IMG/VR virus record: IMGVR_UViG_3300045241_000165
Span: 1 to 40,887 of that record
Reading direction: 5' to 3' (one strand)
Source of the DNA: a virus
Length of the DNA stretch: 40,887 bases
A program made the translations under genes and the position numbers. Below, one piece after another: positions 13,290-25,939 of the stretch (position 1 is the first letter of the stretch; each line of letters begins with the position of its first letter). Below the pieces are notes generated by a model that was given only the letters and a program-made list of their open reading frames with translations, had not been told where the DNA came from and searched no databases.

Positions 13290-13553
13290 TCAGGTCTCCT
13301 CTCGTCTCGGTCTGTCTCGACAGGTGCGCCAGTGACTCGTGCCAGTCCTGGTGCCGTCGGGCTTGATGTCAAACGGACAGCGCCGGTTGTTGGCGCGTGT
13401 GAAGCCCCACCAGATCGGCGCCCCACAGCCCGTCTGGGCGCAGCGTCGCGCGGGTGCCGCACTGGCCAGCAGGATCTGCTGCGCGTCATCGGGGTAGATG
13501 CGCCACGCGTACTCGCGCTCCGTCTCGCCCTCAAGCGCTGGCGGCCGCGGCAT
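13290..13553 (-). CDS. 87-aa zinc-binding-like protein
   Basis: The ATG at 13553 overlaps the methyltransferase stop (TGATG); a GTG one codon upstream is possible. Cysteines CAQTGC and RRCPFD with a C-terminal HWRTC suggest one zinc site around IWWGFTRANN, a pattern seen in many small phage proteins. Unknown function. Confidence 0.65.
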   Translation of the reverse strand: MPRPPALEGETEREYAWRIYPDDAQQILLASAAPARRCAQTGCGAPIWWGFTRANNRRCPFDIKPDGTRTGTSHWRTCRDRPRREET

Positions 13554-15256
13554 CACGCCACCTCCGCGGATTGAGTCACCTCGACGGTGAAACCTCCGTC
13601 GCGTCGAATCCGGTCAGCGGCCATGGCGACGTACTCGGGCTTCAGTTCGATGCCGACGGAATCACGTCCCAACCGCGCGGCCACCATGTTGGTGGTCCCA
13701 GCACCGGCGAACGGATCCAGCACCAGGTCACCCGGGCGCGAGCCCGCGAGGATGCAGCGCCGTGGCACCTCGGTCGGGAATACCGCGAAGTGCGCCTCCG
13801 GGAACGGCTCCGGCGCCAGCAGCCAGACGTTGCGCATATTGCGCCTCTCCACAAGCTCCGACACGGATTGGTGGAAGCTAGGATTCGCTTTCACGCCGTC
13901 GCCGCGGTCGCCCTGTTTGCCATCGAGACTGACGGGCCCGGACCCGGTGCGCGCGTGCGTATTGGAGTCCGCAGTACTCTCAGCGACGGCATCCTGGTCG
14001 TAAAAATAGTCACGTGACTTCGACAGGAGCAGCACCGGCTCCCACGCCGACGTCGGCCGATCGTCCACGCTCTCTGGCATGGGCGCCCGCTTGCACCAGG
14101 CGATCGTCGACCGCCAGTACCAGCCCTCCGCCTGCAACGCCATCGCCACCAGCCACGGAATCGGCACCAGGTCCTTCGGCTTGTAGCCACCCGGCACCAG
14201 GCGCGGGCGATCAGCGAGCTCGCCGCGACGACCATACTCGTAGGCCGGTGAGTGCCCATGGAATCCCTGCCGCGCGACCTGGTCGCTGAGACCGCTCCAG
14301 CCAGTCGGACCTTTGCCGGAGCCCGCGTAGCTGAAACCGATGTTCAGCCACAGCGTGCCGTCGGCCTTCAGGACTCGCCAGACCTCGCGGAACACCTCGA
14401 CGATGTGCTCCACGTAGAGGTGGGGCGTCGGTTCACTACCGAGCTCGCCACACCACGCGCCACACCCACATAGGCTTCCCATCGTGCCGGCGTGCGGCCG
14501 TTTGATCGCCTGGCGAATCGCCGCGGATGAACTGCTGAGCCCGCTGGTGGCGATGCTGCGTTCCCCGTTGCCGCCCGGGCTCCAGACGTACGGCACCGCA
14601 TCCCAGGTGTGCGTATGAACACTGTCACCGCCCCAGACCTGGGGGGCTGTGCCGTAGGCGCGCAGACCCCAGTAGGGCACCGACGTAACGCATGTCTGCA
14701 CCGACGCCGGCTCGAGCTGCGCTAGGCCTCCCCGCACGTCCATCTGCAGCAGTTGGACGCGCGACGGTCTGGCGAGCCCATTGTCGTGAGGCATCGGAAT
14801 CGGCTGCCTGGCGCGCTGGTGGTCCGCGGCAAGCCGCAGCGCCGCGGAGGTCGTGATCTCCTGACCGCGCTGCTTGGTTTCCGCGAGATGATCCTCAAAC
14901 AGTCGCTCGGGAATCGACGCCACCGCCTGATAACGGTGCGATTGCGAGCGACTCAGCCCCAGCTCTTCGAGCGTCGGCGCCGGCTGTAGCGGCTCGCGAC
15001 GGCCGTAGCGGTTGCCTTCATGGCGGGGCAGCTCCCGCAGCAGCTCGCCCGCGCGGCGCTCGGCGCGGAGCTTGATTTCGGCGGCATGGTTCTGGGCCTC
15101 GAGGCCCAGCTGCGCCTCTCGGGCGTACACGCGAGCGGCTTCGGCCATGTCACGGATGTTTTTCACCTCGTCGACGGACCGCGCCGCGGCGAGCAATTGC
15201 ACCGCGTCCTCCAGGCGGCGCAGCGGCGCAGGTTCGGCCGGCGACAGTTCGATCAC
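13553..15256 (-). CDS. DNA methyltransferase (beta class) with N-terminal DNA-binding-like domain
   Basis: 567 aa from a GTG in a GTGA overlap at 15256. The C-terminal two thirds is an S-adenosylmethionine-dependent amino-methyltransferase: catalytic motif IV TSVPYWGLRAYG (191-202) precedes SAM-binding motif I DPFAGAGTT (514-522), the order of beta-class N4-cytosine/N6-adenine enzymes. The usual second residue of the motif is Pro; here it is Val (SVPYW for SPPYW). Residues 10-135 (ARSVDEVKNIRDMAEAARVY, EIKLRAERRAGELL, LEELGLSRSQSHRYQ) match a ParB/KorB-like module usually found as a separate phage gene. Likely protects phage DNA from restriction or marks the origin. Confidence 0.85.
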   Translation of the reverse strand: MIELSPAEPAPLRRLEDAVQLLAAARSVDEVKNIRDMAEAARVYAREAQLGLEAQNHAAEIKLRAERRAGELLRELPRHEGNRYGRREPLQPAPTLEELGLSRSQSHRYQAVASIPERLFEDHLAETKQRGQEITTSAALRLAADHQRARQPIPMPHDNGLARPSRVQLLQMDVRGGLAQLEPASVQTCVTSVPYWGLRAYGTAPQVWGGDSVHTHTWDAVPYVWSPGGNGERSIATSGLSSSSAAIRQAIKRPHAGTMGSLCGCGAWCGELGSEPTPHLYVEHIVEVFREVWRVLKADGTLWLNIGFSYAGSGKGPTGWSGLSDQVARQGFHGHSPAYEYGRRGELADRPRLVPGGYKPKDLVPIPWLVAMALQAEGWYWRSTIAWCKRAPMPESVDDRPTSAWEPVLLLSKSRDYFYDQDAVAESTADSNTHARTGSGPVSLDGKQGDRGDGVKANPSFHQSVSELVERRNMRNVWLLAPEPFPEAHFAVFPTEVPRRCILAGSRPGDLVLDPFAGAGTTNMVAARLGRDSVGIELKPEYVAMAADRIRRDGGFTVEVTQSAEVA

Positions 15257-15486
15257 TGGCGATGCATGCTCGTGTAGAACTCCGGCACGGTCTGGGTGAG
15301 CTGCTGCGCATTGAAGGATTGCGCGCCCGCCACCCCTGGCAGGACCTGCGTCGTCATGCCAAGGTTGTGCTGCTGCAGCTGTGCGAATGGATCCACCCAA
15401 AGGGCAGTCCGCGCCAGCTCTGCATGCAGCGCCGCCTCCACCTTCTCTTTTGGAAAGGGTGCATCGGCAGTGGCGGGCGCGCTCAC
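15253..15486 (-). CDS. 77-aa hypothetical early protein
   Basis: GTG start in a GTGA overlap with the 68-aa gene. Pro/Ala-rich N-terminus, then FPKEKVEAALHAELART and a Gln-rich C-terminus. No family is recognised; supported by the coupled operon structure. Confidence 0.6.
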   Translation of the reverse strand: MSAPATADAPFPKEKVEAALHAELARTALWVDPFAQLQQHNLGMTTQVLPGVAGAQSFNAQQLTQTVPEFYTSMHRQ

Positions 15487-15689
15487 GCGAAAGGGCGCAC
15501 GAGGACCTCGAGCCGTGAGCGGTCGACCTCCTTCAATTCGCCGTCGGAGTCCAGCACCGCGCTGATCGCCGCGGACTGGGCGTCGCGGGCGATCACGGCC
15601 TTCGGCCCAAAAATCAGCTCCTGGCCGATGCCATCCTCGGCGGCCTTCTTCGTCGGATTCTGCAGGATCGCGACTTCGAACAACGGCAT
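15483..15689 (-). CDS. 68-aa conserved early phage protein
   Basis: MPLFEVAILQNPTKKAAEDG at the start and RLEVLVRPF at the end, with FGPKAVIARD in the middle. This small beta-rich protein is seen in many phage early regions; its role is unknown. The ATG overlaps the RecT/Bet stop. Confidence 0.75.
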   Translation of the reverse strand: MPLFEVAILQNPTKKAAEDGIGQELIFGPKAVIARDAQSAAISAVLDSDGELKEVDRSRLEVLVRPFA

Positions 15690-16792
15690 CAGCTCACACC
15701 TTCCTTCACGATTCCGGCTTCCGCATCACGCACTCGCCGTTCGAGGTCCTCGACCGCAGCAAGGGCGTCCACGTCGCTCACCGACTGACTGAGGGGCTCG
15801 TACTCGACGCCCAGGTCGCGCGCCTTCCCTGTCAGCAGTCCCCAGCGCTCCCGCAATTGCGCGCGGCTGAGCTGCGCCACCGTCTCGTCGCGCGCCTGGG
15901 CCGCCGCGTGCGCCTGCTCGACGATCGCCGCGGCGCGCTCGCCGTCGGTCGGGGATGGTGAGTCCTCGTCCGACGACGCCGCGACCGAGCGGTGCGCCGT
16001 GCCCGGGCGGTCAGGTTCGATGAGCACCTCACCGGTCACCGTGTCGACCACTCGACCCTCGATCACTCTGGTCTGTGCAACGGCGGGTGCAGCTGGTGGC
16101 CGCCGCGGCGCCATGGGCTGATCCTCGGGGCCGAAGATCTCGTCGTACCGGCGTGCATTGCGGCGCGTCGCCTCTGGATCGTCGCGGCGCGTCATGTCCG
16201 CCTCAGCCGCGTCCACCCACTCCTGCGGTGGCTGCACGTGCAGCTCCAGCGACGCGGTCTGTTGCGGGAACGCCTTCCTCAGGGCGTGCGACTCGGCACG
16301 AATGGCGAGCTGGTTGTGCGGCCGCTTGCGGTACTGCTCGCCGACCTTGCCAGGGCCTGGATAGAACTCCGACCATCGGGCGCTGGCGGTAAACGGCACG
16401 CGTTGGCCCGAGACGATTTTCCATACCGTGACGGTGGCTTTCGACGGCCATCGCGGGCCGCTGTTCTCTGGCTGCCCGACGTCGTCATATTCGAACTCCG
16501 GGTCGTCGGAGCCGGCGTACACCTGAGATTGCTCGGCGCGGGCGCGGTAGCCGTCGATGCCCACCACGATCTCGGCCGGACTTGTCTCCGAGTACTTGAT
16601 CAGGTAGATCTGGCGCAGGATCGGGTCGAGCCCGAGCCGTGCCGAGTTGACCAGGAAAAACGCGAGCTCGAGCCGAGTCGCTTTCGGCGCGACGGTTTGC
16701 TCCATCAGCGCGATCTCCGCGTCGGTGAAGCCGGAGATGGCCGCCAGCCGCGACTGCTCGCGCGCCGGCGCCTTGGCCAGGGCCTGGGTCAT
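15689..16792 (-). CDS. RecT/Bet-family single-strand annealing protein
   Basis: 367 aa from the ATG at 16792 (ATGA with the Acb2-like gene). Residues about 30-190 contain the Bet/RecT core: LELAFFLVNSARLGLDPILR, QIYLIKY, IVVGIDGYRARAEQ, YAGSDDPEFEYDD and a late RAESHALRKAFP helix. It promotes annealing of complementary single strands in phage recombination and replication. The C-terminal 170 residues are a charged, partly helical tail. No dedicated 5'-3' exonuclease gene is visible; the VRR-NUC protein further upstream is the only nuclease partner in the operon. Confidence 0.85.
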   Translation of the reverse strand: MTQALAKAPAREQSRLAAISGFTDAEIALMEQTVAPKATRLELAFFLVNSARLGLDPILRQIYLIKYSETSPAEIVVGIDGYRARAEQSQVYAGSDDPEFEYDDVGQPENSGPRWPSKATVTVWKIVSGQRVPFTASARWSEFYPGPGKVGEQYRKRPHNQLAIRAESHALRKAFPQQTASLELHVQPPQEWVDAAEADMTRRDDPEATRRNARRYDEIFGPEDQPMAPRRPPAAPAVAQTRVIEGRVVDTVTGEVLIEPDRPGTAHRSVAASSDEDSPSPTDGERAAAIVEQAHAAAQARDETVAQLSRAQLRERWGLLTGKARDLGVEYEPLSQSVSDVDALAAVEDLERRVRDAEAGIVKEGVS

Positions 16793-17037
16793 AGCGGGTA
16801 CGTCCTTCCGTCGAAGGCGATTGCCGCATTTGCCCACATGCGCGCCTCCTGGAGCTTGCGGATCGCCAGCGTGCGCTCGGCGCTGCGCGGAGCCTTTTCC
16901 AGGATCACGTCGTAGAACGCTTTGGCGGCGATGTTGATCGCCTGGAAGCGGGCAATGACCATCGGGTCGTCGGTGTCGATGTACTGCATCGGGTCCGAGA
17001 TCGCGTGAGCCTCAAGCTGCTTCACGTTGTCGGTCAT
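16789..17037 (-). CDS. Acb2/Tad1-hairpin-like protein (possible anti-CBASS)
   Basis: 82 aa. The C-terminal signature PRSAERTLAIRKLQEARMW followed by ANAAIAF resembles the small helical-hairpin family that includes Acb2, which forms hexamers and sequesters cyclic nucleotide signals so that CBASS effectors are not triggered. Length (Acb2 is about 90-100 aa), all-helical character and early-operon location fit. The family also contains members without tested activity, so the anti-defence role is inferred. ATG overlaps the preceding stop (ATGA). Confidence 0.65.
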   Translation of the reverse strand: MTDNVKQLEAHAISDPMQYIDTDDPMVIARFQAINIAAKAFYDVILEKAPRSAERTLAIRKLQEARMWANAAIAFDGRTYPL

Positions 17038-20401: not shown

Positions 20402-20520
20402 CGGCTGACCAGCTTCCAGACGATGACCGCGGCCACTAGCCAGACCGCGAGCCCACCGCCCACGGTGAGCCAGACGAACGGGGGCACATGCCACTGGCTC
20501 TCGTCCTCGTCGTCGATCAT
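20398..20520 (-). CDS. 40-aa single-TM protein
   Basis: Acidic N-terminus (MIDDEDESQW), then FVWLTVGGGLAVWLVAAVIV as one TM span with a basic end (WKLVSR). ATG at 20520 in ATGA overlap with the preceding gene. Confidence 0.55.
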   Translation of the reverse strand: MIDDEDESQWHVPPFVWLTVGGGLAVWLVAAVIVWKLVSR

Positions 20521-20861
20521 CAGCGGGCCTCCTGGTGCTGGTGAAACTCGTGATCAGGGTCGAGCTCGCACCGGCTGGGCGGCGTCTCGGCGGCCTCGGT
20601 GCGCCAGTACGCGCTCGAGCGTTCCAGCTCGCGTTCGATCGCCGCGGTGCGATAAACGCTGATGAGCTCCTCCAAGCGCGCGACAAGGCCGCCCAGCTCG
20701 CTGGTGCGGTGGATGGCGTCCCAGCCCCCGTCGCGCCAGGCGTCAGCCCACAGCCGACTGATGACGTCGGGCGGCACATCGCTCAGTGCCGCGGCCTCGC
20801 TTGGATGCTGGGCGAGCCACACGAAGTAGCTCTTCCGCTGCGTGGCATCAGCCGCGCCCAT
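20520..20861 (-). CDS. 113-aa protein, paralogue of the 106-aa cargo protein
   Basis: SYFVWLAQHPSEAA followed by RLWADAWRDGGWDA and helical VARLEELISVYRT. The layout YF-x-W/K ... HP-x-EA ... W-x2-AW-x-GG matches the protein at 25619-25939 and the 16-aa fragment at 25198, so the genome carries a small paralogous family. Function unknown. ATG overlaps the preceding stop. Confidence 0.65.
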   Translation of the reverse strand: MGAADATQRKSYFVWLAQHPSEAAALSDVPPDVISRLWADAWRDGGWDAIHRTSELGGLVARLEELISVYRTAAIERELERSSAYWRTEAAETPPSRCELDPDHEFHQHQEAR

Positions 20862-21043
20862 CAGGCGACCTCACCGACCGGCTGTTGATCGTCGAGACGG
20901 AGCCGAGCCTCCTCCTGAACTTTCAGATGAAGAAGCCAGCTCCCCTGCTCACGGACGGAGCGGCCATCCAGAATTGCCAGTTTGCGCAGCGGGTCCTCGT
21001 CCTCGCTTCGCAACTCCACCTGCATGCGCATGTTCGCCAGCAT
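20861..21043 (-). CDS. 60-aa ribbon-helix-helix-like protein
   Basis: RMQVELRSEDEDPLRKLAIL as a beta strand plus helix, then REQGSWLLHLKVQEEARLR as a second helix: the layout of small ribbon-helix-helix DNA-binding proteins. ATG at 21043 behind GAGGGCGG. It starts 33 bp after one of the 25-bp operators (21076-21100), so it is probably a regulated early regulator. Confidence 0.6.
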   Translation of the reverse strand: MLANMRMQVELRSEDEDPLRKLAILDGRSVREQGSWLLHLKVQEEARLRLDDQQPVGEVA

Positions 21044-22136: not shown

Positions 22137-22340
22137 GTGGCCAGTCCTGCCCGTCAACCCCGCAAGCGGCGCCAGCAACCTGCCGGCTACCAGCTACGCG
22201 TCGAAAGCATCACCTATCTGGGCGATGACGCGGCCGCGGCGCGCGCGATCGAGAATTTCCTGCGCCTAAGCCGGTCGCGTGACCGGCAGCGAGCGATGGA
22301 TCTCGAGACCGACCGTCCCGATGTTGAGACCGGCGGGTAG
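22137..22340 (+). CDS. 67-aa small basic protein convergent with integrase
   Basis: GTG start behind GGAAGAG. Basic N-terminus (QPRKRRQQPAGYQLRVES), then a helix GDDAAAARAIENFLRLSRS. Its last 75 bp overlap the 3' end of the integrase gene on the other strand. Protein-like, but the start is poor and no family is certain; a recombinase accessory protein is a guess. Confidence 0.4.
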   Translation: MASPARQPRKRRQQPAGYQLRVESITYLGDDAAAARAIENFLRLSRSRDRQRAMDLETDRPDVETGG

Positions 22341-24041
22341 CGAGCCGTCGCGCCAAATATGGCGATAGTGCTGTTGGTTGTTTTCGCGTGACACGGGCGC
22401 CGAGAACACGAACACCATGCGCACTGCCCCGTCCGCGGCGAGGTACATCTCCCGCAGTGTGTCCTGCACCATCGAGCGCAGCTGGACGCGGTCATCGGCT
22501 TCACGCGCGGCTGGCCAGCGCTCGCGCAGATCATGCAGCCGGCCAACCGACTCCACCAGGCGCGTTTCGATTACGCCCGCGAGCGCGTCTTCGGCCTCGA
22601 GCATCTCGAGCTCGTGGCGCACGGCGCCGGCCTCCTCGCCCGCGGCCTTGGTCTCGCGGAAGAATTCCTCTTCGGAGATCTGGTTGCGGCGGACGTAGGT
22701 CAGCAGCTTCGCCCTGGCCTGTTCGTAGTCGGCGAGGCGAGCTCGCAAGAGTTTGGCGCGATCGTCATTGGCGACACTCGTCCCATGGCGCTCGCGGGCC
22801 TGTTCGCGCAGGACCACAAGGGCCGAGTCCGGGTGAGCGACGAACTCGTCGATGGCGTCCAGGACGAAGGCCTCCAGCGCATAGCCGTCGTGGTTGCGCC
22901 TTGCCTGGCAGGGGTCGAGGCCTCGGCGGCCGCGGGGCGCCTTGGCCGACGCGCACACATAGTAGAGACGCGCTTTCGGATCCCAGCGCTGATTGGCGAC
23001 GCGATAGTTGCCTAGCATGCGGTGCCCACATTCCGCGCACAGCAGCTTGCCCGACAATAGGTAGACGTAGCCCTCGTTCTGGCCGGCGTTGAATTTGCTG
23101 ATGCGACCGCTGACCATCGCGTTCGCCTTGTCCCAGACCTCGCGGCCCACGAGCGCGGGCACCTCCTGGCGCAGGACGGCGCCAGAGTAATTCAGCTCAC
23201 GCTCGCCGTAGTAGGTCGTCGAGTGGATCAGCTTCTGCATGCGAGCGGCATTCCACTGCTCAACGGTGCGCTCGCGCTCGGCGCCATCGCGGCGGATGTA
23301 GCGCTGCGTCGACGGCACACCGTTAGCCCTGAGCCAGACGGTCAGCGCCGCGGCGCTCTCGCCGGACGCAGCGCGCCTGAAGATCTGGCGCACCATGTCA
23401 GCTTCGGTGCAGCCCAGCTCCTCGACGATCCGCTCCGACGGGACGAGACGGTTGTCGTCGCCGAGGTCGTAGCCGATCGGCACCGGGCCGTTGATGAACT
23501 TGCCCTCACGCGCGCTGCGATCACGGCCGAGCGTGAACCGCTCGATGATGGTCTCGCGCTCGAGCTCGGCGATGGAGCCGAGCAACTGAAAAACGAACTG
23601 GCCGATGGGCGTGCGTGTGTCGAAGGGCTCGGTTGCGCTGAGGATGGCGACGTTGTGGCGCTCGAGCTCCTCGTGAATGTCGAGCAGAACCCCGAGGCGG
23701 CGGCCCAGGCGGTCGAGGCGGTAGGAGATGACGACGTCGACGCCGCGGGCGCGGACCAGGTCGAGCAGGCGCTTCCCTTCCGGGCGGTCCGCGATCGCAA
23801 GCGCGCCACTGTAGCCGTCATCGACGAACTGCCCGACGAACTGCATCGGCTCGAGCGAGTCGGGATCGAAGTTCGCCTGGTACTTCTTCTGGAGAAAATC
23901 GATCTGGTTGCGGGCCGTGGCCCGCTCAGTCTGTTCCTCGCTCGAGACCCGAATGTAGAACGCGACGCGAGTAAGCCCTACCCCGCCGAGCTCGCGGGAC
24001 GAGCCTCGGCGGGGGCGAGAGCGCGAGGCGGTGGTCATCAA
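22266..24041 (-). CDS. Large serine integrase
   Basis: 591 aa; catalyses site-specific integration and, with a directionality factor, excision of the prophage. Resolvase domain: YIRVSSEEQ with catalytic Ser33, VDDGYSGALAIADRPE, and ISYRLDRLGRRLG. The recombinase domain follows (from about residue 185), then a zinc ribbon with Cys335, Cys338, Cys363 and Cys378, and a helical coiled-coil segment (about 420-500). ATG at 24041 overlaps the coiled-coil gene stop. It is the third gene of an operon headed by an XRE regulator, so integrase expression is probably tied to that regulator. The attP site was not identified. Confidence 0.95.
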   Translation of the reverse strand: MMTTASRSRPRRGSSRELGGVGLTRVAFYIRVSSEEQTERATARNQIDFLQKKYQANFDPDSLEPMQFVGQFVDDGYSGALAIADRPEGKRLLDLVRARGVDVVISYRLDRLGRRLGVLLDIHEELERHNVAILSATEPFDTRTPIGQFVFQLLGSIAELERETIIERFTLGRDRSAREGKFINGPVPIGYDLGDDNRLVPSERIVEELGCTEADMVRQIFRRAASGESAAALTVWLRANGVPSTQRYIRRDGAERERTVEQWNAARMQKLIHSTTYYGERELNYSGAVLRQEVPALVGREVWDKANAMVSGRISKFNAGQNEGYVYLLSGKLLCAECGHRMLGNYRVANQRWDPKARLYYVCASAKAPRGRRGLDPCQARRNHDGYALEAFVLDAIDEFVAHPDSALVVLREQARERHGTSVANDDRAKLLRARLADYEQARAKLLTYVRRNQISEEEFFRETKAAGEEAGAVRHELEMLEAEDALAGVIETRLVESVGRLHDLRERWPAAREADDRVQLRSMVQDTLREMYLAADGAVRMVFVFSAPVSRENNQQHYRHIWRDGSLPAGLNIGTVGLEIHRSLPVTRPA

Positions 24042-24364
24042 TTTCGCCCTGGAGAATCGCGAAGGTGCGCCTCAACGAGGCCGAGACGGTCATCAATGGA
24101 ATTGACACGAGCTTCGACGCGACCGAGACGGTCATCGATGGAGTTGACGCGCGTTTCGACGCGGCCGAGACGGTCATCGAGACCATCAAGACGATCAGTA
24201 ACGCCTTCGAAACCGCGGCGCATCTCAACCAGAATGGCGTCAAGAGTCGCAGCCATATGGCCAAAGAGAGCGCGCTGCTCGCGGTCGAACGCCTCGTCAC
24301 GGCGGATCAGGGCATCCGCCTGGGTCTCCGTGAAGCCAGCGGCAAGGTACTCAGCAGGCGTCAT
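24038..24364 (-). CDS. 108-aa coiled-coil protein between regulator and integrase
   Basis: Residues 1-45 (TPAEYLAAGFTETQADALIR, AFDREQRALFGHM) form a small helical head. Residues 55-105 are a near-perfect 14-residue repeat, DRLGRVETRVNSID, with Leu/Val/Ile in heptad positions: a parallel coiled coil. ATGA overlaps link it to both the regulator and the integrase. No family is certain. A partner or oligomeric modulator of the integrase or regulator is suggested by position only. Confidence 0.7.
   Translation of the reverse strand: MTPAEYLAAGFTETQADALIRRDEAFDREQRALFGHMAATLDAILVEMRRGFEGVTDRLDGLDDRLGRVETRVNSIDDRLGRVEARVNSIDDRLGLVEAHLRDSPGRN
24077..24187. repeat. 42-bp tandem repeat coding the coiled coil
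   Basis: About 2.5 units of 42 bp, each with GACCGAGACGGTCATCGATG or a close variant. It encodes the 14-residue heptad repeat of the 108-aa protein; coding, not a CRISPR or iteron. Confidence 0.75.
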
Positions 24365-24582
24365 GACTGTGGCTCCATCAAGTCGGTGGGTTTGACGCCG
24401 AGGGCTTCAGCAAGCTTGCGAACCGTGCTCATGTATGGCTCCTGGGCACCGGATTCGATTCGGGACAGCGTCGCTGGCGTGAGACCGGCCTTGGAGGCGA
24501 GCTCGCGCTGATTGAGCGCCTGGCGCTCGCGGATCGCCTTGAGGCGGGACAACTTCACCACATGCACATCGTACACAGACAT
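24361..24582 (-). CDS. XRE-family regulator heading the integrase operon
   Basis: 73 aa from ATG 24582; a TTG 18 bp upstream lies inside the promoter and is rejected. HTH: NQRELASKAGLTPATLSRIE, with YMSTVRKLAEALGVKPTDLM after it. The predicted transcription start is at or within 2 nt of the ATG, so the mRNA should be leaderless. It probably controls the symmetric divergent promoter from which it and the plus-strand cargo operon start. Confidence 0.85.
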   Translation of the reverse strand: MSVYDVHVVKLSRLKAIRERQALNQRELASKAGLTPATLSRIESGAQEPYMSTVRKLAEALGVKPTDLMEPQS

Positions 24583-24590
24583 GAACAAGA

Positions 24591-24596
24591 CTATAT
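24591..24596 (-). promoter_or_regulatory. -10 box for the regulator-integrase operon
   Basis: TATAGT read on the minus strand, 9 bp before the ATG at 24582. The -35 region (GTGCAT-like, about 17-18 bp away) is weak, which suggests activation or a basal level set by the regulator. Confidence 0.5.
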
Positions 24597-24603
24597 CCAA
24601 ACC

Positions 24604-25051: not shown

Positions 25052-25201
25052 ATGCCAGCGATCACCACGCGTCGGGTGGCCGCCATCGCCGTGCTCGCGC
25101 TGCTGCTGGCCGCGGCCTACGTGTGGCTTGCGATCTGGGCGGACGAGCGCAACCAGCGGTTTTTCCTCGCCTCGGAAGAGCGACCGGACTGGGCCCGATG
25201 A
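25052..25201 (+). CDS. 49-aa single-TM peptide
   Basis: AGGAGG 8 nt before the ATG, a strong ribosome binding site. A VAAIAVLALLLAAAYVWLAI hydrophobic span after a basic N-terminus (TTRR), then a charged tail. Type II membrane anchor of unknown role. Confidence 0.65.
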   Translation: MPAITTRRVAAIAVLALLLAAAYVWLAIWADERNQRFFLASEERPDWAR

Positions 25202-25248
25202 GCACCACCGACGCGTCCAGCGCGTACTTCGCCTGGCGGTACTACTGA
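25198..25248 (+). pseudogene. 16-aa 5' remnant of the gene interrupted by HNH
   Basis: ATG in ATGA overlap with the preceding gene; reads MSTTDASSAYFAWRYY and stops. Its N-terminal pattern matches that of the gene after the HNH (MTNASREYFKFKYYHP) and ends at GTACTAC, which recurs at the far side of the HNH block. Joining the two at that heptamer restores one open gene. Confidence 0.6.
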
Positions 25249-25660
25249 TGCCGACCGGCGTATATCCGCGCAAGCCAGCGATAGAGCGCTTCCTGGCGAA
25301 GGTCTCGAAGACCAACACTTGCTGGATTTGGCTCGGTGCCATCGGTTCTGACGGCTATGGCAAGTTGTCAATAGGCGGGCGTGGCGCCCGACGTGATCTA
25401 AAGGCGCATCGATTTGCGTATGAACAATTCGTTGGTCCAATTGAGTCAGGCCTGGATCTAGACCACCTCTGCCATGTCCGAACATGCGTCAACCCGGCGC
25501 ATCTTGAGCCTGTCACTAGAAGCATCAATAGCCAAAGAACCAGACGCTGCCCTATGGGACATCTCTTCATCCCAATGAATTGCCTAGCGTGCGCGCGTCA
25601 ACACGGGGTAGCCATGGCATGACCAACGCCAGTCGTGAATATTTCAAATTCAAGTACTAC
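25246..25660 (+). mobile_element. HNH endonuclease insertion with recoded target 5' end
   Basis: About 415 bp of visibly lower G+C between two copies of GTACTAC (25239-25245 and 25654-25660). It consists of the HNH gene plus 42 bp that re-encode the first 14 codons of the target gene with different, AT-richer codons. Limits are inferred from the repeat and the composition change. Confidence 0.6.
25248..25622 (+). CDS. HNH homing endonuclease
   Basis: 124 aa. HNH core: LDLDHLCHVRTCVNPAHLEP (His, Asn, His) with Cys pairs for zinc, preceded by DGYGKLSIGGRG and AHRFAYEQFVGPI, followed by a C-terminal CPMGH-x6-NCLAC zinc ribbon. Start ATG at 25248 overlaps the remnant's stop (TGATG); stop overlaps the next ATG (ATGA). 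Codon use is more AT-rich than in neighbours. It should nick or cut alleles lacking the insertion and so spread by homing. Confidence 0.9.
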   Translation: MPTGVYPRKPAIERFLAKVSKTNTCWIWLGAIGSDGYGKLSIGGRGARRDLKAHRFAYEQFVGPIESGLDLDHLCHVRTCVNPAHLEPVTRSINSQRTRRCPMGHLFIPMNCLACARQHGVAMA

Positions 25661-25939
25661 CACCCGCACGAGGCCGAGGATCCCAGCGCGGTCTGGTCCG
25701 CGGCATGGAAAGCCGGCGGCCGCGCGGCGATGTATGACAGCGCGCGCCTCGTGGCGCTCGTGCCGTTGCTCAACGACCTGCTGCAGCTGCTGCAGGACGA
25801 GCGCGTCGAGGCCGCGGTACGCGCCAGTGATCGTCGCTTCTGGGACAGTGTCGGTATCGACCCGGACTATGAAGCGGCCCACGATGCCTGGGAGAGCGTG
25901 GAACGCGTCGCAGCGGATGACTGCTGGGTGTCCTGGTGA
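25619..25939 (+). CDS. 106-aa protein, target gene of the HNH insertion
   Basis: ATG at 25619, coupled to the HNH stop; a frame start 39 bp upstream lies inside the HNH gene and is not used. Pattern EYFKFKYYHPHEAE, VWSAAWKAGGRAAMYDSARL, then a helical LLNDLLQLLQDERVEAAVRA. Paralogous to the 113-aa protein at 20520-20861. The first 14 codons look imported with the HNH; from HPHE on, G+C returns to the genome level. Function unknown. Confidence 0.7.
   Translation: MTNASREYFKFKYYHPHEAEDPSAVWSAAWKAGGRAAMYDSARLVALVPLLNDLLQLLQDERVEAAVRASDRRFWDSVGIDPDYEAAHDAWESVERVAADDCWVSW

Follow-up and report, generated by a model that had tools for sequence, protein, structure and literature searches.

The inserted block described here is best understood as a homing endonuclease element that sits inside a useful phage gene and replaces the end of the gene that it cuts off, a reading to which we assign a probability of about 0.7. 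It lies in a virus record of 40,887 bases, called the window below, and it combines an HNH endonuclease gene with a new 5' end for its target, ORF106. We also hold it to be rather probable, with somewhat less confidence, that the block represents a widespread class of phage mobile elements, in which an HNH gene and a diverged, cut-resistant end of the target move as one unit and are found in many unrelated genes, at either end of them.

The features of the locus are collected in the table below. The reading frames are tightly interlocked: the ATG of the HNH gene overlaps the stop codon of the orphan start (TGATG), and the HNH stop in turn overlaps the ATG from which ORF106 is now read (ATGA). 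The orphan 16-codon ORF, the HNH gene, the coupled ATG and both copies of GTACTAC are found at the coordinates given in an earlier note on this DNA. The right limit of the insert may be placed at any position within the shared heptamer. ORF106 may be dispensable in the phage; its AlphaFold model (mean pLDDT 74.5, pTM 0.36) is too weak for identification of a fold.

Features of the ORF106 locus in the window
Feature	Position	Strand	Remarks	Basis
ORF49 (49 aa), upstream neighbour	25052..25201	+	TGA (25199-25201) overlaps the orphan-start ATG	sequence
Displaced native 5' end of ORF106 (MSTTDASSAYFAWRYY, stop), 16 codons	25198..25248	+	upstream of the insert; ATG 25198-25200, codons to 25245, TGA 25246-25248	matches to native starts, GC3 16/16, empty alleles
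GTACTAC, left copy	25239..25245	+	final bases of the displaced end	sequence
Inserted block, 415 bp	25246..25660	+	HNH gene and replacement 5' end	comparison with 27 empty alleles
HNH homing-type endonuclease gene (124 aa)	25248..25622	+		Pfam HNH_3, phrog_826, GC3
Replacement 5' end of ORF106 (MTNASREYFKFKYY), 14 codons	25619..25660	+	AT-rich, diverged	G+C; not in other viral contigs
GTACTAC, right copy	25654..25660	+	junction of replacement and native body; ends codon 14 of ORF106	sequence
Native body of ORF106 (HPHEAEDPSA...)	25661..25939	+	intact to the stop	alignment of 18 homologues
ORF106 as read now (106 aa)	25619..25939	+	chimeric target gene; mainly helical by prediction	alignment; AlphaFold

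The uninterrupted state of the gene is preserved in relatives of this phage. A scan with ORF106 as a single protein gave nothing, a difficulty that was solved by scans with two of its neighbours, a SWIM zinc-finger protein and ORF121, through which syntenic virus contigs were found. A profile scan recovered 28 contigs with ORF106, and in 27 of these, three of which are near-identical copies, the gene has no HNH gene inside it. The starts of these empty alleles correspond to the orphan of the window joined to the body of ORF106, which bears out the earlier proposal that joining the two at the heptamer yields an intact allele. The orphan matches the native start of L016 (MSVAADPSGAYFAWRYYHPHEAEDPSA) at 39 of 48 bases and that of L021 (MSVATDASSAYFGWRYHHPHEAEDPSA) at 42 of 48, and the replacement matches the latter poorly. 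Moreover, the replacement start, NASREYFKFKYY, is encoded by no other viral contig, and no donor allele with this exact start was found among them. Given these matches of the orphan and the absence of the replacement from other viral contigs, it is the orphan that represents the native start, and ORF106 now begins with a foreign one. The earlier note had named beforehand two outcomes that would speak against its reading, a lack of joined alleles and an HNH-free allele with the replacement start; alleles resembling the join exist in the 27 contigs, and an allele of the second kind was not found. ORF106 has no match among annotated phages and was not found in bacterial genomes, and a nucleotide search of phage records with this region of the window likewise returned no match. 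A small upstream gene in L023 was considered as a remnant of an HNH gene and rejected, as it is a separate zinc-ribbon-like ORF.

The block is AT-richer than its flanks, as had been noticed at the outset. The G+C content is 69% both in the orphan before GTACTAC and in the body of ORF106, versus 56% in the HNH gene and 39% in the first 12 codons of the replacement (replacement against body, Fisher P = 0.0006), and GC3 is 0.58 in the HNH gene versus 0.83 in the ORF106 body (P 1e-4). Over the 12 aligned codons the replacement and the displaced start share only 6 of 12 residues (pS 0.95, pN 0.37), and the replacement is therefore a diverged homologous start; the earlier description of a synonymous-like, AT-rich version of the first 14 codons was thus sound as regards its composition and divergence, and has to be amended in that the change is not simply synonymous. 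The start-anchored similarity score of the orphan and the replacement is 41, which exceeds chance (P about 5e-4 against cross-locus pairs). The shared heptamer says little by itself, because GTACTAC encodes two conserved tyrosines. A paralogue of ORF106 (MGAADATQRKSYFVWLAQHPSEA...) is found elsewhere in the same phage, on the minus strand at 20520-20870 of the window, and several relatives have one too; comparison ruled it out as the source of the replacement start.

The HNH protein matches the Pfam family HNH_3 at 53 bits, against a curated cut-off of 24.8, this being the sole family match above its cut-off, and phrog_826 with an E value of 1e-38; no solved structure matching it by sequence was found. 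HNH genes like this one are well established as phage homing endonucleases (PMC12724721, PMC2988022). Occupancy of the site varies among close relatives, with an HNH gene in the window and in L028 and empty alleles in the other contigs. In L028, ORF106 holds a different HNH gene, 49% identical to that of the window, whose point of entry is two codons away. In that contig the native start, MEPLQLHIAASAYFAWR, and the HNH protein form an in-frame fusion (QRFWDKVWKTETCWIW), and the live ORF106 restarts at an ATGA overlap with a new start, MSALANAATEYFRWRFHHP (MSALANAATEYFRWRFHHPHETEDPSA). In a quick tree of HNH proteins the two elements fall into one weak nine-member group, the resolution being too low to bear on a single origin.

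The view that an HNH element had replaced the 5' end of its target has thus proved largely right, and the arrangement recurs not only at ORF106 in L028 but also in many unrelated genes. For about 193 related HNH loci we compared the peptides encoded on the two sides of the HNH gene, looking for a match between them and taking pairs swapped between loci for the null; 34 loci from bacterial genomes, scored in the same way, formed an independent set. Among the former, the HNH gene is flanked at 13 sites by a displaced end and, on its opposite side, by a diverged replacement; eight of these sites are 5' (the window, L028, L118/L151, L186, L191, L259, L160 and, more weakly, L249) and five are 3' (L148, L217, L197, L133, with RusA as the target, and L258, with Sipho_Gp157). 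The paired ends are exemplified by MKACPRCGCQG/MPTCPRCQCQGHG in the 5' case of L118/L151 and by CEYHPMFGGKCRMAPLKVED versus EFNPLFGGRCRMAPARVED in the 3' case of L148. In the start-anchored test of the 193 loci, six score at least 35 against 0.15 expected; since L217 scores only through an off-frame echo of its 3' case, the true start-anchored cases number five. The bacterial set adds two further 5' cases, L334 (score 46, null maximum 29) and L348 (score 34), the latter with a DUF5131 gene as its target. The target genes, about 14 in number, are unrelated to one another. Uninterrupted forms of some of these targets are also on record: for that of L259 there are ten or more native homologues free of an HNH gene, some in the phage group of the window, and that of L217 has an intact homologue in Clavibacter phage CN1A. 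The layout is found at about 6 to 7% of the loci, and no displaced ends were seen around the 13 homing endonuclease genes of named phages that were tested, which marks it as a minority form. When similarity was at first tested without constraints, GC-rich off-frame matches dominated the result, and L107, L114, L121, L113 and L096/L097 were dropped as off-frame or compositional noise.

Across these loci, the live end of the target lies downstream of the HNH gene in the 5' cases and upstream of it in the 3' cases. Its GC3 is lower than that of the displaced end in 14 of 14 pairs measured (sign test 6e-5), GC3 not having been a criterion in picking the cases. The pooled pS of 0.84 versus a pN of 0.22 between live and displaced ends indicates that the protein is kept by the replacement, and in the clearest case, L197, 18 of 19 residues are kept and 14 of the 18 conserved codons differ. 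Together, these observations imply that the live ends are functional protein sequence that arrived with the HNH gene from a diverged source.

For the element of the window, we envisage that the HNH protein would cut or nick the uninterrupted ORF106 of a co-infecting phage near FAWRYY/HP, and that repair would copy the element between two homologous arms, namely the 5' flank and the body of the gene. The recipient would gain the HNH gene along with the start of the donor, and its own start would become a new displaced fragment. The donor start differs from the native one at 10 of the 17 bases to the left of the shared heptamer, which suggests that the repaired gene would probably not be cut again; since the cutting site would be restored by an unchanged native start, a stable insertion would call for a diverged one. 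Elements of the 5' version would also take over the translation start of their target, either by fusion of the HNH protein to the displaced start or by a stop-start overlap. Such a fusion is seen in L028, L160, L186, L249, L334 and L348. At 6 of 10 5' sites the replacement start codon is placed 4 bases ahead of the HNH stop end, and it overlaps that stop (ATGA or GTGA) in the window, L028, L186, L191, L160 and L334. If this scenario is true, the 5' version uses the start site of the gene for its own expression and gives the gene a new start that overlaps the HNH stop, and such elements are natural home-and-rescue drives. Besides a serine integrase and an HTH repressor, the phage of the window encodes a RecT-type annealing protein, and this protein would favour repair through short homology. 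The serine integrase/recombinase and the HTH repressor lie on the minus strand at 22266-24600 of the window, divergent from the early genes that hold the element, and their presence suggests that the phage is probably temperate; an N6/N4 DNA methylase and the RecT annealing protein are encoded on the same strand at 13553-16837.

The alternative that survives best, albeit an unlikely one, sees the layout as a by-product of one-sided repair. The donor would then have carried a free-standing HNH gene between genes, and, once ORF106 had been cut, one side would have been repaired by homology, with the HNH gene and the start being copied, and the other joined at a short match, leaving the orphan behind; the replacement end would be a co-converted flank and not part of the unit. 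Neither the occupation of one site by two distinct HNH genes that each have a replacement start of their own, nor the repetition of the layout at both gene ends across about 14 genes sits easily with such an accident, even if the GTACTAC at both joins and TGCCAGGG in L118 fit a short-homology join and a RecT-like annealing protein is among the products of this phage. Phage endonucleases are known to co-convert flanking sequence (PMC2988022), and if the donor had an HNH gene just beside the target, such co-conversion could produce an identical trace even with no selection of the end as part of the element; yet the same structure is a recurrent homing unit in the WHO elements of yeasts (PMC7282813), which further favours the homing element with a replacement end.

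The remaining explanations are far less probable. Homologous starts on both sides of the HNH gene would also be expected from tandem duplication of the start of the gene, with an HNH gene inserted later between the copies. We give this little credence, as the live copy is AT-richer in all 14 pairs, the synonymous divergence is near saturation (pooled pS 0.84), close relatives match the displaced copy and not the live one, and no relatives with both starts and without the HNH gene were seen. An equally slim chance attaches to the joining of the displaced start to the body by RNA splicing, an intein or ribosome bypassing, which would leave the replacement start unused. A TAC repeat, present ahead of the stop and again on the far side, does resemble the take-off and landing arrangement of T4 gene 60, but HNH coding sequence occupies 375 of the 415 bases of the insert and the displaced start is fused to the HNH protein at the loci listed above; further, the in-frame stop before the HNH gene excludes an intein, and there is no Rfam match at E 1 and therefore no known intron family. 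Least probable of all is an assembly chimera or a chance similarity, for although the window is one metagenome contig and the match is short, L118 and L151 are contigs of two separate metagenomes that share the structure in a 100% identical HNH locus, which shows that it is not an artefact of assembly there, and the independent instances in other viruses and bacterial genomes are far above the cross-locus expectation.

The homing element with a replacement end is best read as a phage mirror image of the WHO elements of yeasts and of the endonuclease hybrids of fungal mitochondria. In Torulaspora and Lachancea the 3' end of FBA1 is replaced each time a WHO element homes, the old end being left as a fragment, and the replaced end has been shown in yeast to give resistance to the element's own enzyme (Coughlan 2020, PMC7282813). 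In both systems the endonuclease gene adjoins the gene whose end it replaces and the former end lies on the far side (25198-25248 in the window). However, WHO elements encode HO-like LAGLIDADG enzymes, reside in nuclear genomes and replace mostly one gene, FBA1, and always its 3' end, whereas those described here are HNH elements of phages with many target genes; in the window it is the 5' end that is replaced, with takeover of the translation start, and a 3' counterpart is seen with five relatives of the HNH gene. In the mobile-ORF hybrids of fungal mitochondria, the C-termini of atp6, atp9, cox2 and nad3 in Glomus and of atp6 in Allomyces have been replaced (PMC3630166). There too an endonuclease ORF brings a diverged end of the gene, the native end remains beyond it, and the DNA has diverged with the protein being kept. 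These hybrids differ in being C-terminal only, mitochondrial and of the LAGLIDADG or GIY-YIG type, and were interpreted as horizontal transfer (PMC3630166), in contrast to the N-terminal replacement in a phage genome seen in the window.

Phage endonucleases, for their part, are described in reviews and surveys as intergenic, intron-borne, intein-borne or gene-splitting (PMC2988022, PMC10448857, PMC12724721). The free-standing HNH and GIY-YIG enzymes known from homing and marker exclusion, such as T4 seg and mob (PMC2988022) and the Skunavirus HNH (PMC12724721), resemble the present one in including HNH_3-type phage enzymes and in presumably homing by cutting endonuclease-free relatives, with co-conversion of the flanks. 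They differ in occupying intergenic positions or in dividing a gene into two parts (Aeh1 nrdA, T4 gene 60), and a displaced end with a diverged replacement is not described in the available parts of PMC2988022 and PMC12724721. The element of the window is set apart from an ordinary intergenic endonuclease by the presence of the displaced end and by the empty alleles that show the gene intact. In the open-access literature we came across no account of replacement ends in phages, nor of the 5' kind in any organism, and to judge from that literature the 5' form seems to be previously undescribed; a precedent elsewhere is possible.

What is described here is a phage-borne, either-ended variant of an already known type of homing element, and it is broader than first observed. 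Homing endonucleases are usually said to avoid harm by residing in introns, inteins or intergenic sites; a further route in phages would be insertion in coding sequence with a recoded end supplied. This would explain short gene fragments and odd gene starts beside HNH genes, and it carries a warning for annotation, in that such genes are chimeric. It also offers a simple bacterial system for testing resistance by recoding, the principle of engineered rescue drives.

Some loci outside the window display related features. In L148 (3001-3444), a 3' version, the displaced tail EFNPLFGGRCRMAPARVEDSEGDN has gained an ATG just upstream (MSEFNPL...), so that annotation may list it as a small gene, and it may even be expressed as one. 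In L009 (11880-12590) an HNH gene lies between two coiled-coil ORFs (LRLQEENRQLKEELAKWQ, RIAHLEAENERLRANNERL), possibly another case of replacement, with complexity too low to call. Finally, the metallophosphoesterase gene that is the target in L217 is followed by an HNH gene in Microbacterium phage ISF9 (L311, 598-2417) and by a GIY-YIG gene in Clavibacter phage CN1A (L310, 595-2511), in both cases without displaced ends, so that its 3' end looks like a hot spot for two families of endonucleases.
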